Assembly (NCBI GenBank): GCA_947500415.1
Contig: CANMRT010000002.1
Coordinates: forward strand, 62,001-126,000
From: an uncultured Roseicyclus sp.
GTDB lineage: Bacteria > Pseudomonadota > Alphaproteobacteria > Rhodobacterales > Rhodobacteraceae
Direction: 5' to 3'
Length of the DNA: 64,000 bases
Shown here: positions 1 through 56,357 of the stretch, piece by piece
Position numbering within the stretch: position 1 is the stretch's first letter
Layout of the letters: the number at the start of each line of letters is the position of its first letter
The notes under the pieces: model-generated
Seen by the model: only the letters and a program-made list of their open reading frames with translations
Database searches by the model: none
Told to the model about the DNA's origin: nothing
Translations under genes and position numbers: made by a program

Positions 1-537
1 CTCGATACCGATGATCTGGAACGGCGGATGGAAGGGGCCATTGCATCGCTGCGCACGGAATTCGCATCCCTGCGGACGGGCCGCGCCTCGGCCTCCATGC
101 TGGAGCCGGTAATGGTGGACGCCTACGGCGCGATGACGCCGATCAACCAGGTGGGCACGGTTAATGTGCCGGAACCGCGGATGGTTACGGTAAACGTCTG
201 GGACAAGGGCTTGGTCGGCAAAGTCGAAAAGGCGATCCGCGAGAGCGGCCTGGGCATCAACCCACAGCTGAACGGCACGATCATCATGCTGCCGATCCCT
301 GAGTTGAACGAAGAGCGTCGCCGGGAGTTGGGGAAGGTCGCAGGCACCTACGCCGAGAATGCGCGCGTCTCAATCCGCAATATCCGGCGCGACGGGATGG
401 ATCAGATCAAGAAGGCCGATACGTCCGAGGATGATGCGAAATTCTGGGAAGGGGCGGTGCAGGAGCTGACCGATACCTTCATCAAGCGGGTCGACGAACA
501 ATTGGAGACCAAGCAAGAAGAAATCATGCAGGTTTGA
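1..537 (+). CDS. frr: Ribosome recycling factor, 5' end cut by the window
   Basis: This protein splits post-termination ribosomes together with EF-G. The reading frame is open to base 1 (LDTDDLERR before the first internal Met), so about nine or more N-terminal residues lie outside. The family hallmark SLRTGRAS is visible near the N-terminus, and the C-terminus is the usual charged helix ending in EEIMQV. About 178 residues are present; full-length family members have about 185. It is followed by a strong hairpin and T-run, so frr is transcriptionally separated from the uppS cluster although the gene order is the classical one. Confidence 0.97.
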
Positions 538-561
538 AACATGGACCGGACATACGTCCGG

Positions 562-590
562 CTGATGCTCCGATGGAGCATCAGATTTTT
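562..590 (+). terminator. Intrinsic terminator after frr
   Basis: CTGATGCTCC and GGAGCATCAG form a perfect 10-bp stem over the three-base loop gat, followed by ATTTTT. A smaller hairpin (CCGGAC/GTCCGG at 546-561) sits just before it. It lies 25 bases after the frr stop. Confidence 0.8.
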
Positions 591-692
591 CAAAGGGCGG
601 AGCCCAGGAACCCCATCAATTCACAGACACGCGTGGCCAAATCAATTGCCTGCTAGTCTTGTTTCCCCGGACGCCCCCCGAAAGGACGCCCA

Positions 693-1409
693 ATGAAAGA
701 CCAGACCCAAGTGCCGAAACACGTGGCCATCATCATGGATGGTAACGGCCGTTGGGCGCAGATGCGGCGCCGTCCGCGCCTTGTGGGCCACCATGCGGGG
801 GCCAAGCGGGTGCGTGAAGTGGTGCGGGCCTGCCCGGATCTGGGCGTGAAATACCTGACGATCTTTGCCTTCTCGACCGAGAACTGGAAGCGCACGCAGA
901 CGGAAGTGGCGGGCTTGATGAAGCTTTTCAAACGCTACATCCGGCGCGAGGCGCAGAACCTATTGGAAGAAGGCGTGCGGGTTCGCTTCATTGGCGATCG
1001 CGTCAAGCTGGAGCCTGCGTTGGTCGACTTGATGGACGGGCTAGAGCTTTTAACCGCGGACAACGACAAGGTTCACCTGACGATTGCGCTGAACTACGGC
1101 GGCCGGGATGAAGTGACACGCGCGGCCAAGCGGATGGCCTATGACGTCTCCATGGGGAAGCTGAACCCGCGTGATGTCTGTGATGAGACTTTCCCGAAGT
1201 ACCTCGACACCCACGTGTTGCCGGATCCGGATCTTGTGATCCGTACCAGTGGCGAGGCGCGCATTTCGAATTTCCTGCTGTGGCAGTCGGCTTATGCGGA
1301 ATACGAGTTCATCGACACGCTTTGGCCGGACTTCACCTCGGAAGTATTTGCCGAGGTCGTAGGCCGTTTCGGCGTCCGCGAGCGGCGCTTCGGCGCGGTG
1401 CCGGTCTAA
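693..1409 (+). CDS. uppS: Isoprenyl (undecaprenyl-diphosphate) synthase
   Basis: This cis-prenyltransferase extends farnesyl-PP with isopentenyl-PP to make the C55 carrier for peptidoglycan and O-antigen synthesis. The 238 residues match the family. The substrate-binding motif DGNGRW (residues 16-21, catalytic Asp16), FSTENWKR (60-67) and the C-terminal RTSGE region near residue 185 are all present. The start ATG follows GAAAGGA at a normal distance. It begins the run uppS-cdsA-dxr-rseP; cdsA starts three bases after the stop. Confidence 0.97.
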   Translation: MKDQTQVPKHVAIIMDGNGRWAQMRRRPRLVGHHAGAKRVREVVRACPDLGVKYLTIFAFSTENWKRTQTEVAGLMKLFKRYIRREAQNLLEEGVRVRFIGDRVKLEPALVDLMDGLELLTADNDKVHLTIALNYGGRDEVTRAAKRMAYDVSMGKLNPRDVCDETFPKYLDTHVLPDPDLVIRTSGEARISNFLLWQSAYAEYEFIDTLWPDFTSEVFAEVVGRFGVRERRFGAVPV

Positions 1410-1412
1410 CGC

Positions 1413-2246
1413 ATGGCGGGCGGCCCGAAATTCGCGGATCTGGTGCCGCGTATTCTATCGGCCTTTGTGCTGTTGGCGGTTGCGGGCGCAGGGCTTTGGC
1501 TTGGCGGAATGGTCTTGGCGTTGCTATTGGCAGTCTTCGGGGCGGTGATGTTGTGGGAATACTTCCGCCTTATCATCCGGTTGTCGCAGCGGGCGACGAC
1601 GATTTACACGGCGCTGACGTCGGCCTTGCTGGCCTTGGCGCTGATCCTTGAGGATCGGCTTGCGGGGGAGGCGGATGGCACCTTGACCCTTTCACCCGTC
1701 GCGGCAAGTGTTTTGGCCGTTACGATGATCGCCGTAATGATCCCGGTGCGCAAAAGCCGGCTTGAGACGCTTTTCGGGGCGATGATCCCGCTGGCGACGT
1801 TTCTGTTCTTTTACCTTCACCAATCCGTGCCGTTGGCGATGTGGTTGGTAGTGGCTGTCGTGATTTCCACGGACGTGGCGGGCTATTTCTTTGGCAAGCT
1901 GATTGGTGGGCCGAAGTTCTGGCCGAGCCTTAGCCCCAACAAGACATGGTCTGGCACGATGTCGGGGTGGGTGATGGCCGCGATCATCGCAATAGTCGTT
2001 GGGGTGCGCGCCTCTGACCCGATGCCCACGATGATCGTGGGTGTGTTGTTTCTGGTTGCCGTCGCCTTTGCGGCCCAGATGGCGGATATCGCGGAATCGG
2101 CGTTGAAACGCAGGGCAGGGGTCAAGGACAGCTCGAACCTTTTGCCTGGCCACGGCGGGGCGCTGGACCGGTTTGACGGTATGTTGGGCGGTTTCACGGT
2201 GGCAGGCCTCGCGTTCGTGCTGGCGGGTTTTGCGGTGGCGCTGTGA
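1413..2246 (+). CDS. cdsA: Phosphatidate cytidylyltransferase
   Basis: This membrane enzyme makes CDP-diacylglycerol from phosphatidate and CTP, the entry point to phospholipid head-group synthesis. The 277-residue protein is almost entirely hydrophobic helices. The C-terminal family signature is visible as SALKRRAGVKDSSNLLPGHGG, with the Lys-Asp pair and the Gly-rich end, followed by DRFD. It is translationally coupled: its TGA overlaps the GTG of dxr by four bases (GTGA). Confidence 0.95.
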   Translation: MAGGPKFADLVPRILSAFVLLAVAGAGLWLGGMVLALLLAVFGAVMLWEYFRLIIRLSQRATTIYTALTSALLALALILEDRLAGEADGTLTLSPVAASVLAVTMIAVMIPVRKSRLETLFGAMIPLATFLFFYLHQSVPLAMWLVVAVVISTDVAGYFFGKLIGGPKFWPSLSPNKTWSGTMSGWVMAAIIAIVVGVRASDPMPTMIVGVLFLVAVAFAAQMADIAESALKRRAGVKDSSNLLPGHGGALDRFDGMLGGFTVAGLAFVLAGFAVAL

Positions 2247-3430
2247 GCCGACGGCGGGTTTCGATCTTCGGGGCCACAGGCTCCATCGGGCAAAACACAA
2301 TCGACCTAATCGCGCGAGACCTGGACGCCTACGACGTCATTGCGCTGACGGGCGCGTCGAACATCACCCAACTCGCCACAGATGCGATCAGGTTGGGGGC
2401 GCAGATTGCGGTCACAGCCGAGGAGAGATTGTTGCCAGACCTGCGCGCCGCGTTGGATGGCAGCGGGATTGAGGCGGCAGCTGGCGAGGCGGCTTTGCTG
2501 GAGGCGGCAGATCGACCCGCGGATTGGATCATGTCAGCGATTGTGGGCGCGGCGGGCCTGGCGCCCGGGTTCCGCGCGTTGCGGCATGGTACGACCTTGG
2601 CGCTGGCCAACAAGGAAAGCCTTGTGACCGCCGGTCCGCTTTTGTTGCAGCAGGCGCAAGCGGATGGGGCCACAATCCTGCCCGTGGATAGCGAGCATTC
2701 GGCCGTGTTTCAGGGGCTTGTCGGTGAGGATATGAGCGCGGTTGAGCGCATCATCATCACTGCATCTGGCGGCGGTTTGCGCGATTGGCCGCTGGAGGCG
2801 TTGGCCAGCGCTACGCCAGAAGATGCCGGGGCCCATCCGAATTGGGACATGGGGCAGCGGATCACGATTGATTCCGCGTCGATGTTCAACAAGGCAATGG
2901 AGCTGATTGAAACGAAAGAGTTTTTCGGCGTGCGGCCCGAACAGATCGAGACTGTCATTCACCCGCAAAGCATCGTTCATGCGCTGGTGGGGTTCAACGA
3001 CGGCGCACTGATGGCGCATCTGGGCGCGCCCGATATGCGGCACGCCATCGGTTATGCGCTACATTACCCGGAGCGACGAGACCTGCCGGTGGCGCGGATC
3101 GACCTGGCGCAATTGGCGACATTGGAATTCTACGCGCCCTGCGATACGCGTTATCCTGCGTTGAAAATCGCGCGTGCGGTGATGGAAACCGGCGGCCATG
3201 CGGGCTGCATTTTCAACGCCGCCAAGGAAATCGCGCTGGACGGATTTCTGGCGGGCCGCATCGGCTTCATGGATATGAGCGGTGTGGTTGAGGCGACACT
3301 TGACGCGATCTCGTCAAAGATCAGCCTTTCAAATGCCGTGGAAACCCTTGAGGACGTCCTTCAAACGGACCAAATGGCACGTAAGACGGCCTGGACCATG
3401 ATCGAGCAACACGAAAAAAGGCATAGTTGA
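2243..3430 (+). CDS. dxr: 1-deoxy-D-xylulose-5-phosphate reductoisomerase
   Basis: It converts DXP to 2-C-methylerythritol 4-phosphate, the first committed step of the MEP isoprenoid pathway that supplies uppS upstream. The NADPH-binding GATGSIG (residues 10-16), the ANKESLVTAG motif and the metal/substrate-binding DSEHSAVFQ segment are all intact. The 395 residues are the normal length. The start is GTG in a GTGA overlap with cdsA. Its stop shares a base with the ATG of rseP (TGATG), which indicates coupled translation. Confidence 0.97.
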   Translation: MSRRRVSIFGATGSIGQNTIDLIARDLDAYDVIALTGASNITQLATDAIRLGAQIAVTAEERLLPDLRAALDGSGIEAAAGEAALLEAADRPADWIMSAIVGAAGLAPGFRALRHGTTLALANKESLVTAGPLLLQQAQADGATILPVDSEHSAVFQGLVGEDMSAVERIIITASGGGLRDWPLEALASATPEDAGAHPNWDMGQRITIDSASMFNKAMELIETKEFFGVRPEQIETVIHPQSIVHALVGFNDGALMAHLGAPDMRHAIGYALHYPERRDLPVARIDLAQLATLEFYAPCDTRYPALKIARAVMETGGHAGCIFNAAKEIALDGFLAGRIGFMDMSGVVEATLDAISSKISLSNAVETLEDVLQTDQMARKTAWTMIEQHEKRHS

Positions 3431-53311: not shown

Positions 53312-54415
53312 ATGGCAATGATTTCACCGTCCCGCCGGTTGCGCAGAACGCCTTTTTCCGAGGGCGTCGAGGCGGCAGGCGTCAAGGCCTACACGATCTA
53401 TAACCGGATGCTTTTGCCGACGGTCTTCCGCTCGGTCGAGGAAGATTACCGCCACCTCAAGGATGCGGTGCAGCTTTGGGACGTGGCGGTTGAACGGCAG
53501 GTTGAGGTGCGTGGTCCGGATGCAGGTAAGCTGATCCAGATGCTGACGCCGCGCGACCTGCGCGGGATGCTGCCCGGGCAATGCTACTACATGCCGGTGG
53601 TGGATGAGACGGGCGGTATGCTCAATGACCCAGTGGTCGTGAAGCTTTCTGAAGATCGGTGGTGGATCTCCATCGCGGACAGCGATTTGTTGTTGTGGGT
53701 CAAGGGCGTAGCCTATGGCTACCGCCTAGATGTGCTGGTGGATGAGCCCGATATTTCTCCGCTCGCCGTGCAGGGACCCAAGGCCGATGACCTCATGGCG
53801 CGGGTCTTTGGAGAGAGCGTGCGCGACGTGCGGTTCTTCCGTTTTGGTTGGTTTGAATTTCAGGGGCGCAGCCTTGTGGTGGCGCGGTCGGGCTATTCGA
53901 AACAGGGCGGGTTTGAGATCTACGTTGAAGGCGCAGACATCGGGATGCCACTTTGGAATGCATTGATGGAGGCCGGCAAGGACCTAGATGTCCATGCCGG
54001 ATGCCCCAACAATATCGAACGCATCGAGGGCGGATTGTTGAGCTATGGCAATGACATGACCGACGACAACACACCCCACGAATGCGGGCTTGGGCGGTTC
54101 TGCAATACCGCAACCGCAATCGGGTGCATTGGCCGCGACGCTCTGCTACGGGTGTCGATGGAGGGGCCGGTGCAGCAAATTCGGCCGATTGCGATCAATG
54201 CCAAGGCGCTGCCGTCGTGTGATCGGGCGTGGCCGTTGATGGCGGGGTCGCGGCGTGTGGGGCAAGTGACCTCTGCCGCGATCAGCCTGGATCATGGGGA
54301 AGGCGTGGCCATCGGCATGGTGCGGATGACCCATTGGGATGCGGGCACGCCGCTGCATCTTGAAACGCCCGAAGGCAGTTTCGACGCGGAAGTGCGGGAA
54401 CAATTCTGGAATTAA
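53312..54415 (+). CDS. dmdA: Dimethylsulfoniopropionate demethylase
   Basis: DmdA moves a methyl group from DMSP to tetrahydrofolate, yielding 3-methylmercaptopropionate. It is a GcvT-like protein of 367 residues. RRLRRTPFSEGVEAAGVKAYTIYN at the start, DVAVERQVEVRGPDA and ARSGYSKQGGFEIY closely follow the marine DmdA pattern; plain GcvT has no such N-terminus. AAGGAG nine bases upstream fixes the start. acuI follows after 43 bases, the typical roseobacter pair. Confidence 0.92.
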   Translation: MAMISPSRRLRRTPFSEGVEAAGVKAYTIYNRMLLPTVFRSVEEDYRHLKDAVQLWDVAVERQVEVRGPDAGKLIQMLTPRDLRGMLPGQCYYMPVVDETGGMLNDPVVVKLSEDRWWISIADSDLLLWVKGVAYGYRLDVLVDEPDISPLAVQGPKADDLMARVFGESVRDVRFFRFGWFEFQGRSLVVARSGYSKQGGFEIYVEGADIGMPLWNALMEAGKDLDVHAGCPNNIERIEGGLLSYGNDMTDDNTPHECGLGRFCNTATAIGCIGRDALLRVSMEGPVQQIRPIAINAKALPSCDRAWPLMAGSRRVGQVTSAAISLDHGEGVAIGMVRMTHWDAGTPLHLETPEGSFDAEVREQFWN

Positions 54416-54458: not shown

Positions 54459-55451
54459 ATGAGCTTCAATGCCTTGATGGTCGAGAAGAATGACGAGGGC
54501 AAAACGAGTGCTGCCGTCACGCAGATCACCGAAGATCAATTGTCCGAGGGGGATGTCACGGTTGCGGTCGAATATTCGACCGTGAACTACAAGGATGGTC
54601 TGTGCATCGGGCCAGGCGGCGGGCTGGTGCGCAACTACCCGCATGTGCCCGGGATTGACTTTAGCGGCACCGTGGAAGCCTCTGACGATCCACGATATTC
54701 GCCTGGCGACCGTGTTGTCCTGACCGGCTGGCGTGTGGGGGAGGCCCATTGGGGTGGCTATTCGCAGAAGGCGCGCGTGAAGGCCGATTGGCTGGTGCCG
54801 CTGCCTGATGGTCTGACTGCGCGCCAGGCGATGGCTGTTGGCACGGCTGGGTTTACTTCGATGCTCGCCGTCATGGCACTTGAAGATCATGGCTTAACCC
54901 CCGGAAACGGTGAGGTTTTGGTGACAGGTGCTGCAGGTGGTGTGGGCTCGGTCGCAACGGCGATTCTGGCCAATCTGGGCTATGAAGTGGCGGCTGTGAC
55001 GGGGCGCCCGGAGCAGGAAGATTACCTCAAATCGCTGGGGGCGAGCCGGATTGTGGCCCGGGAAGAACTGAACGAAACCACGAAAAGGCCTTTGGAAGCC
55101 GAGACTTGGGCGGGCTGCGTGGATGCCGTGGGCGGCGACATGCTGGCGCGTGTGCTGGGGCAGATGAAGTATGGTGCGTCCGTTTCTGCTGTGGGTCTGG
55201 CCGGTGGGGCTGGACTGCCTGCAACCGTGATTCCCTTTTTGTTGCGAGGGGTTAACCTGCTTGGCATCGACAGCGTGATGCAGCCCTACGACAACCGTGT
55301 GCGGGCCTGGGAGCGGATCGCGAAGGATCTGCCGATGGATAAGCTGGAGGCGATGGTGCATCCAGCGACCTTGGCCGATCTGCCGGAGCTTGGTCGCGCC
55401 ATCCTGAAGGGTGGTGTGCGGGGCCGTGTCGTCGTTGATGTGAATGCCTAA
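54459..55451 (+). CDS. acuI: Acryloyl-CoA reductase (MDR family)
   Basis: It reduces acryloyl-CoA to propionyl-CoA with NADPH, so it clears the toxic product of DMSP cleavage. 330 residues of the medium-chain reductase type: YSTVNYKDGLCI, FSGTVEASDDPRY, GGYSQKARV and the nucleotide-binding TGAAGGVGSVA near residue 150. Located behind dmdA in one unit. Confidence 0.9.
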   Translation: MSFNALMVEKNDEGKTSAAVTQITEDQLSEGDVTVAVEYSTVNYKDGLCIGPGGGLVRNYPHVPGIDFSGTVEASDDPRYSPGDRVVLTGWRVGEAHWGGYSQKARVKADWLVPLPDGLTARQAMAVGTAGFTSMLAVMALEDHGLTPGNGEVLVTGAAGGVGSVATAILANLGYEVAAVTGRPEQEDYLKSLGASRIVAREELNETTKRPLEAETWAGCVDAVGGDMLARVLGQMKYGASVSAVGLAGGAGLPATVIPFLLRGVNLLGIDSVMQPYDNRVRAWERIAKDLPMDKLEAMVHPATLADLPELGRAILKGGVRGRVVVDVNA

Positions 55452-55456
55452 AACCC

Positions 55457-55570
55457 GTCCAGATGAACGCATAAGCGTTCATCTGGACGCATATTTCGCG
55501 TAAACTGCGTTCATCTGAACGCATTTGGGTCCGTTCACGTGAACGCATCGAACTGCGTCCAAGTGAACGG
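55457..55570. repeat. Array of 16-bp palindromes with 24-bp period
   Basis: A stem GTCCAGATGAACGC/ataa/GCGTTCATCTGGAC (55457-55488) is followed by three 16-mers at 55507, 55531 and 55555, each spaced 24 bases: GCGTTCATCTGAACGC, CCGTTCACGTGAACGC, GCGTCCAAGTGAACGG. The first is a near-perfect self-complement. The spacers are unrelated 8-mers (atttgggt, atcgaact). The array fills the convergent gap between acuI and lrp. It is not CRISPR-like in size. Confidence 0.85.
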
Positions 55571-55573
55571 GTT

Positions 55574-56032
55574 TCACAAGGGCAGGGCTTGCCCCTCTTT
55601 CAACTCTTCCATCACGAAGCTGGCGGAGACATCGCCCATCTCCACCTTCTCGATGAGGCGCTGATAGAGGCGGTCGTAATCGGCCATGTCAGCGACGCGG
55701 GCCCGGATGAGGTAATCGAGGTCGCCGGTCATCCGGTAGACCCCGAGGATTTCGGGGATGGCGCGCACGGCACGGCGGAATTGGTTGAGCCAGTCGGCGG
55801 AGTGATGGGCGGCGCGGACCTGGATGAAGACCATGAGGCCAAGGCCCACGGCAGAGGGGTCTACTACGGCCACGCGGCCCTTCAAGATGCCACGATCTTC
55901 CAATGCCTTGATGCGCCGCCAGACGGCGTTGCGGCTGAGGCCGACGTGGCGGCCAAGCTCTTCCAACGGTTCATCGGCGCGGCGTTGCAGATGGGCGAGG
56001 ATTCGGCGGTCGGCTTCATCAAGTGTCATCAT
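55574..56032 (-). CDS. Lrp/AsnC-family regulator
   Basis: 152 residues. N-terminal HTH (LAHLQRRADEPLEELGRHVGLSRNAVWRR, about 10-45) and a C-terminal RAM ligand domain (YRMTGDLDYLIRARVADMADY). The start is Met 56032 (Met 56029 also possible). Its 3' end runs into the palindrome array. An inverted repeat in the upstream spacer could be its own operator. Confidence 0.9.
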   Translation of the reverse strand: MMTLDEADRRILAHLQRRADEPLEELGRHVGLSRNAVWRRIKALEDRGILKGRVAVVDPSAVGLGLMVFIQVRAAHHSADWLNQFRRAVRAIPEILGVYRMTGDLDYLIRARVADMADYDRLYQRLIEKVEMGDVSASFVMEELKEGQALPL

Positions 56033-56046
56033 GTATGAGGGTCTAG

Positions 56047-56103
56047 GTGGAAAATATCCCACTGTCACGCTGAATGATGCGAAGAATTGGGAGCATTTTC
56101 CAC
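56047..56103. promoter_or_regulatory. Inverted repeat upstream of the Lrp gene
   Basis: GTGGAAAAT (56047-56055) and ATTTTCCAC (56095-56103) form a 9-base inverted repeat with 39 bases between; extending it gives GTGGAAAATATCCCA against TGGGAGCATTTTCCAC. It lies between the divergent Lrp and DUF6356 genes and is a good candidate operator. Confidence 0.5.
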
Positions 56104-56150
56104 AAGTGGGCTGGCAATCTGTTCGCATAAGCCGAACAGGAGCAGCCAAA

Positions 56151-56357
56151 ATGATCAATCGCGTCTTTCTCGACCACCCTTCGAGCGTGGATGAAACCTA
56201 TCTTGAGCACATGGCTTTCGCGGGCAAGTTCAGCGGAAAGCTGGCGCTGGCCGCCGCGGCGGCCGCTGTCCATGCGGTGATCCCTTGCTTGTTTGAGAAA
56301 ACCGCCAGCCGCATGATTGCGGACATGTATGCGAAAACCCACAACCGAGGTCAGTGA
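56151..56357 (+). CDS. DUF6356 small protein
   Basis: 68 residues. FLDHPSSVDETYLEHMAFAG is the family hallmark; a hydrophobic helix (KLALAAAAAAVHAVIPCLF) follows and the tail is EKTASRMIADMYAKTHNRG. AGGAG nine bases upstream fixes the start. The next gene starts directly after its stop, so the two are co-translated. Function unknown. Confidence 0.8.
   Translation: MINRVFLDHPSSVDETYLEHMAFAGKFSGKLALAAAAAAVHAVIPCLFEKTASRMIADMYAKTHNRGQ

Follow-up and report, generated by a model that had tools for sequence, protein, structure and literature searches.

Evenly spaced, polar palindrome arrays at conserved chromosomal positions in Roseicyclus, and a motif that differs between species

In Bacillus and Staphylococcus, the Noc system uses palindromic sites (NBS) that are scattered round the chromosome and read by a ParB-family protein (PMC4331003, PMC7383237), and the specificity of ParB and Noc is reportedly conserved among species (PMC7383237). 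The arrays described here, from Roseicyclus, resemble NBS in being scattered palindromic sites but differ in that their motif varies between sister species. Noc sites are also single, whereas the Roseicyclus dyads stand in arrays of fixed spacing. In E. coli, the TetR-family division regulator SlmA has dispersed, specific DNA sites (SBS), which are commoner near the origin (PMC4117426). The Roseicyclus arrays are likewise dispersed, but evenly so, with no clear gap at the terminus and with a putative binder. The near-palindromic RefZ motifs (RBM) of Bacillus, which are bound by a TetR protein, hold chromosomal positions that are conserved genus-wide (PMC6657595); they number five and are conserved in sequence, whereas Roseicyclus carries about 40 arrays whose sequence changes.

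REP, BIME and REPIN elements are extragenic palindromic repeats that occur in tens of copies and are long-persisting (PMC8049555). The Roseicyclus arrays differ from these in that no RAYT was found in the array-rich genomes checked, spacing is even and unrelated motifs occupy orthologous places. DNA uptake sequences form dialects in which a short motif changes genome-wide between relatives, at hundreds to thousands of single sites; the likeness lies in the change of motif among relatives, and the difference in the number and form of the sites, which in Roseicyclus make up about 40 arrays. The literature searched, at the level of abstract openings, gave no description of such arrays.

The array is real and its family wider than was first noted, and its regularity and apparent change of motif in place are surprising; its function and binder are putative. 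Positions and polarity are kept while the motif changes between sisters, which would separate 'where' from 'what' in chromosome organisation. RefZ sites, in contrast, are conserved in both sequence and place (PMC6657595). Judged from the sequences, the arrays point to an unrecognised chromosome-organising system with a putative binder. If this is true, the system would permit direct tests of joint change in a DNA-binding protein and tens of its sites.

The array in the window and its family

The window is a stretch of 64,000 nucleotides from an uncultured Roseicyclus sp. (contig CANMRT010000002.1, positions 62,001 to 126,000, forward strand). The gap at 55452-55573, between two stop codons, contains five 14-bp dyads of the pattern CGTYCANNTGRACG, at dyad spacings of 20, 32, 24 and 24 bp. 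The features of the locus are as follows.

54459..55451, + strand: acrylyl-CoA reductase (AcuI) gene (NF051456, E 1.8e-132, above cut-off)
55452..55573, + strand: whole array, filling the gap from stop codon to stop codon
55453..55524, + strand: 72-nt family core (P1, 6 nt, P2, 18 nt, P3, with 3-nt flanks)
55456..55469: dyad P1, CGTCCAGATGAACG
55476..55489: dyad P2, CGTTCATCTGGACG, which pairs with P1 in a hairpin of 15 perfect bp
55490..55507: 18-nt spacer, T-rich then A-rich, of a length fixed across the family
55508..55521: dyad P3, CGTTCATCTGAACG
55532..55545: dyad P4, CGTTCACGTGAACG
55556..55569: dyad P5, CGTCCAAGTGAACG
55574..56032, - strand: Lrp/AsnC-type regulator gene, convergent (NF008370, E 3.3e-27, below cut-off), with its start picked by eye within ORF 55574-56158

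The initial annotation had described three palindromic 16-mers at an exact 24-bp period, preceded by a hairpin. Self-complementary sites at a 24-bp step are indeed present, but that step is limited to the last three dyads of five (starts 55456, 55476, 55508, 55532 and 55556), and the spacing conserved across the family is instead 20 then 32. The hairpin exists too, although it is formed by dyads P1 and P2 themselves, as 15-bp perfect complements around a 4-nt loop. The real unit has 14 bases; in the 16-mers at 55531 and 55555 the outermost bases do not pair, and the third core, given as a CGTTCA repeat with AA in the middle, reads CGTCCA-AG-TGAACG, with middle bases AG. The setting is convergent: the array sits between the stop codons of acuI (+) and the Lrp/AsnC-type gene (-). 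Upstream of acuI, ORF 53312-54415 reads by eye as a DmdA-type aminomethyltransferase (DMSP pathway).

Within the window, the dyad pattern occurs five times exactly and six times at <=1 mismatch, whereas 100 shuffles average 0.85 and never reach six, so chance is excluded there. The window's own genome (G000, 4.01 Mb) holds 72 exact sites, compared with 0 for a reversed-pattern control. All but one of these sites (71) fall in 40 arrays at 39 places, the remaining one lying within a coding gene. The suggestion that the locus might seed a repeat family was thus well placed, and the array family is common to several Roseicyclus genomes. Among 61 genomes, only G000 (72 sites) and the sister species G005 (36) are rich in the pattern; the other 11 genomes of the genus hold 1-6 sites each (control 0-4), and 48 genomes from elsewhere in the family or class hold 0-6 (control 0-9). 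A two-dyad pattern searched in one genome per species across 84,980 species, a set from which the window's own records may have been left out, matched two Roseicyclus assemblies only. Plasmids, phages and viral contigs (0 for the last) gave no array match in searches that may likewise have left out records near the window's genome.

A covariance model built from 22 aligned copies finds at least 40 cores in G000 (first pass on 150 of 1309 candidates), at least 44 in G005 and at least 4 in G010. The window core is one of its matches (G000:C2:117453-117524, +) and also a row of the family alignment. In all 88 of 88 copies from these three Roseicyclus genomes, the core, three dyads set first 6 bp and then 18 bp (T-run, A-run) apart, is ungapped; dyads beyond it differ in number and place, giving 2-6 dyads per G000 array. 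The motif is therefore not confined to the window and the family spacing is not lost in relatives, although the 24-bp step is: the G005 copy of the window site has three dyads, at 20 and 32, and lacks that step.

Regular spacing and inherited polarity under a changing motif

The 39 places in G000 have a mean interval of 103 kb. Within contigs, the interval CV is 0.484, against 0.908 for random placement, and none of 20,000 simulations was as regular; treated as a circle, with contig order inferred from collinearity with G001, the genome gives 0.467 against 0.966, again with 0 of 20,000 simulations as regular. The regularity stands when a 20-kb exclusion zone is allowed (P 0.00015), and counts per 200 kb range only from 1 to 3 (variance/mean 0.24, P 0.0003). 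Intervals in G005 have a CV of 0.560 (P 0.00015), a result that is not independent of G000 because most places are common to both. These are the two genomes in which regularity was assessed, parts of the array set having been mapped in the remaining species. Sparse GC skew puts the G000 terminus at about C2:126-300 kb; arrays lie at C2:117 and 236 kb, followed by a 224-kb gap, and with origin and terminus roughly placed there is no clear depletion of arrays around the terminus in G000. A bias of array orientation by replichore was considered and rejected (12+/8- vs 6+/14-, P 0.11, not significant, with approximate origin and terminus).

Positions are strongly conserved. G005 carries an array at 36 of the 39 G000 places, 35 of them matched by both flanks, with identical orientation at all 36 and flanks that are 72-93% identical; C1:905625, C1:1314749 and C2:459507 found no match among the fetched G005 arrays. 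All four G010 cores also lie at G000 places. The motif, meanwhile, is divided: at 14 of the 36 shared places both species have CGTTCA-type arms, at 17 the arms are CGTTCA-type in G000 and TGACCA-type in G005, and at five they are TGACCA-type in both. Identity at the neutral middle bases is 0.57 for CGTTCA pairs, 0.37 for switched pairs and 0.37 for TGACCA pairs, compared with 0.31 for unrelated copies; the corresponding figures for the spacer are 0.80, 0.66 and 0.71, compared with 0.66. Three CGTTCA pairs have all middle bases identical, and without those three the middle-base identity of the class is 0.45. Visible descent differs between the 17 switched and the 14 CGTTCA pairs (Fisher P 0.008), but low identity was rejected as the mark of a switch by whole-unit replacement, the five unswitched TGACCA pairs being equally low (0.37). 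Common descent within the core thus appears scarcely visible, apart from some CGTTCA pairs, a pattern that the turnover of a repeat would also fit.

A third motif occupies some of the same places in G001, where a separate dyad, TCCCNNNNGGGA (TCCC), forms 13 arrays; the draft genome G007 has two, and at <=1 mismatch the other 11 genomes of the genus have none. All 13 G001 arrays lie at G000/G005 places by both flanks; the G007 arrays also lie at such places, the first with both flanks matched and the second, which is at a contig end, with one. Twelve of the 13 have at least three dyads, and in all 12 the spacing is 20 and 43. In each of the 12 informative cases the short and long steps give the polarity seen in the G000/G005 array, L196 and the G007 array L195 being uninformative with two dyads each. 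Further CTGAGTCAGAAAA-type repeats, of yet another motif, are seen in the C1:721381 gap of G001 and G003 (L336, L325).

In other members of the genus, 11-bp direct repeats are found. Pairs matching ATTGATATACC (<=1 mismatch) number 7-23 in G002, G004, G006, G008, G009, G010 and G011 and 0-2 in the remaining genus genomes, and are not numerous outside the genus (one each in 5 of 120 genomes, G000 being among those five). By both flanks, 6 of 15 such loci in G006 and 5 of 10 in G008 share a gap with a G000/G005 array; one of the five in G008 is the window gap, and some shared gaps hold an inserted gene. Such an overlap (11 of 25) has P <=4e-6, assuming 500 to 3000 gaps. All told, 50 such loci were drawn from 12 of the 13 genomes, a set that takes in the gene-linked operator copies, and both flanks matched for 13 of them.

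The reverse comparison, in which 11 array places were looked up in seven species, gave 75 gaps, 62 of them resolved by both flanks and 13 not. Six of the resolved gaps hold G001 TCCC arrays and 19 hold GTA-core 11-bp repeats (by eye, four degenerate); the remaining 37 hold neither dyads nor 11-bp repeats, again by eye, so stations of this kind would often be absent. At the C3:517149 place, nothing was found in the other species examined. An automatic period-11 score reached >=10/11 at 8 of the 75 loci, and periods of 8, 9, 10, 12, 13 and 14 did so at 0, 4, 1, 1, 2 and 2. The GTA strand agrees with array polarity at 13 of 13 loci from eight places, and by eye at C1:1265685; it is opposite to the array at the window gap (G008, G011) and at C1:1619814 (G011), so that 9 of 11 places agree. 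The window gap itself holds ATTGATCTACC-type direct repeats, of polarity opposite to the window array, in G011 (L147) and G008 (L141), and in G001, G003, G002 and G006 it is 11-15 bp long with no array. The 11-bp repeats are not dyads, which makes it less certain that they are related to the dyad arrays. Separately, a GGTATATCAATGGTATATCAAT 11-bp repeat stands at an apparent shared promoter region beside a gene read by eye as a GntR regulator (L210, L213, L221, L229, L231 and, from the other side, L211, L234, L237).

Proposed stations for a DNA-binding protein and the alternatives

The explanation that we favour, with a confidence just short of an even chance, is that the arrays serve as polar stations at fixed points of the chromosome where a DNA-binding protein attaches, in the manner of the nucleoid-anchor sites of Noc, SlmA and RefZ. 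Each station would be a rigid, polar set of dyads in a gene-end gap, about 100 kb from the next, with its first three dyads approximately whole helical turns apart (20, 32 or 43 bp). These steps amount to 1.9, 3.05 and 4.1 turns, and the distance from P1 to P3 (52 or 63) to 4.95 or 6.0; dyads P4 and P5 are out of helical phase. A dimeric protein would recognise the dyads in double-stranded DNA, the stations may organise or mark the chromosome in a role of the nucleoid-anchor, nucleoid-occlusion or segregation type, and the recognition code would have changed in place in separate lineages. The rigid, near-helical layout, the dyads without RNA covariation, the regular spacing and the inherited polarity are all in keeping with a dimeric DNA-binding protein that acts at such stations on the scale of the chromosome. 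Positions along the chromosome are conserved, as expected of nucleoid anchors (36 of 39 in G005, CV 0.47 vs 0.97), with many gaps empty elsewhere. The initial annotation had named a protein-binding array, an architecture site or a partition site as possible roles; regular spacing, conserved position and polarity favour architecture.

More tentatively, and on the unlikely side, there may be about 40 permanent, even, polar stations whose recognition code changes in place while position and direction persist, the codes being CGTTCA or TGACCA dyads, TCCC dyads and GTA-type 11-bp repeats. The same reading would make the arrays a fast-evolving chromosome-organising code, akin in its rapid change to centromere or PRDM9 motifs, possibly read by a variable-helix orphan ParB-like protein.

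It is rather unlikely that the arrays are instead palindromic repeats of the REP, BIME or REPIN kind: once-mobile, non-autonomous elements that spread to gene-end gaps and now turn over between copies without host function. Amplification is lineage-specific, G000 and G005 having 72 and 36 sites and the other 11 genomes of the genus 1-6 each, copies are extragenic, and the family has the many copies and mosaic combinations by which such repeats are recognised (40 cores, 2-6 dyads); the scant sequence descent within the core at shared places is as turnover would have it. Such repeats would not account for regular spacing, nor for the use of the same gaps, in the same polarity, by species with unrelated motifs. 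The RAYT (Y1) transposase family PF01797 has 0 matches in G000, G005 and G001, although 5 of 14 control genomes match, and weak matches occur in 2 of the 13 genus genomes (G007, G003). REP and REPIN palindromes carry a 5' guide tetranucleotide such as GTAG; by eye, none is conserved in the 22-copy alignment. The lack of any plasmid, phage or viral-contig match, in sets that may have left out records near the window's genome, and, by eye, of target duplication at the window's empty sites also speaks against a mobile origin.

That the arrays end transcription from both directions, or act as protein roadblocks where genes end, we consider quite unlikely. As to gene context, 36 of the 40 G000 cores are clear of called ORFs, and the four that overlap one do so by about 14 nt at a gene end in two cases and by 62 and 85 nt in the others. 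Fifteen arrays plus that of the window are convergent, 21 tandem and 3 divergent, counts that are approximate because ORF calling labelled the convergent window copy tandem; in favour of terminators, these calls put no more than 3 of 40 arrays in divergent gaps, with most facing the end of a gene. Terminator-like matches occur in 27 of 40 G000 array regions as against 29 of 160 control stretches, and among tandem copies the strand opposite the genes is preferred (16 vs 6, the six including the miscalled window; P 0.05). With both strands scored, however, no more than 22 of 40 bare cores in G000 and 17 of 44 in G005 are terminator-like, and the window copy has 0 intrinsic terminator matches. 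Termination would account neither for the ~100-kb regularity nor for the change of motif, and the 11-bp repeats that share these gaps are direct repeats, not hairpins.

Operators of a TetR- or GntR-type regulator, forming a regulon, or decoys for one, are very unlikely. The dyad form would suit such a regulator, and one array lies beside a RutR-like TetR gene (L089:876-1487; TIGR03613, E 4.7e-69, below cut-off) whose promoter holds TTGACCAATTGGTCAA (L089, about 1621-1636). The second motif of G005, TGACCANNTGGTCA, presumably resembles the RutR box. Most arrays, however, are away from divergent-gene promoters, and their flanking genes are by eye unrelated housekeeping genes; a promoter or regulon reading was rejected because gene contexts and neighbours do not fit it. 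With 71 of 72 sites in arrays and the other in a coding gene, no ordinary operator is seen.

A structured RNA element is extremely improbable: hairpins are strong, with perfect P1-P2 pairing in the window, but covariation across 22 copies is no higher than in shuffles (248 of 500 pair at least as well), which favours recognition as DNA, and Rfam gives no match at the array in 10 loci. Directly before one array, at L066:1311-1487, lies the one Rfam hit, to RF01867 (Caulobacter sRNA CC2171; E 4.6e-6, below the gathering score).

A candidate binding protein

The ParB site parS is TGTTTCACGTGAAACA, and the arrays do not match it: by eye only TTCACGTGAA is common, and only where NN is CG, which applies to 9 of 120 G000 core dyads, all of them at P1. 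In the genus, 11 of 13 genomes encode an orphan ParB-like protein, about 277-300 aa long; G002 and the draft G007 gave none. It has two sequence types, and among solved structures it comes closest to Noc (E 2.1e-8).

G000:C4:144321-144599 (L295): orphan ParB-like protein (PF02195, E 1.3e-10)

This protein, whose presumed recognition helix varies between species, is a candidate binder of the arrays, though on balance an unlikely one. Among seven type-A proteins, nine alignment columns have >=4 residues. Two of these, the adjacent positions 140 and 141 (of 277), fall in an otherwise conserved presumed recognition helix (placed by eye); the seven other columns, including the adjacent pair 74-75, are equally variable. 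The helix core of the chromosomal ParB, GKSRSHLAN, is invariant in 13 of 13 genomes. Type A is found in G003, G008 and G009 as well, species in which no dyad arrays were found, and type does not track motif; the protein is therefore a lead only. In G000, some 6 kb separate its gene from an array that is flanked, by eye, by smc. Arrays L099 (G000:C4:137903) and L085 (G000:C2:921555) adjoin what look by eye like the condensin genes smc and scpB.
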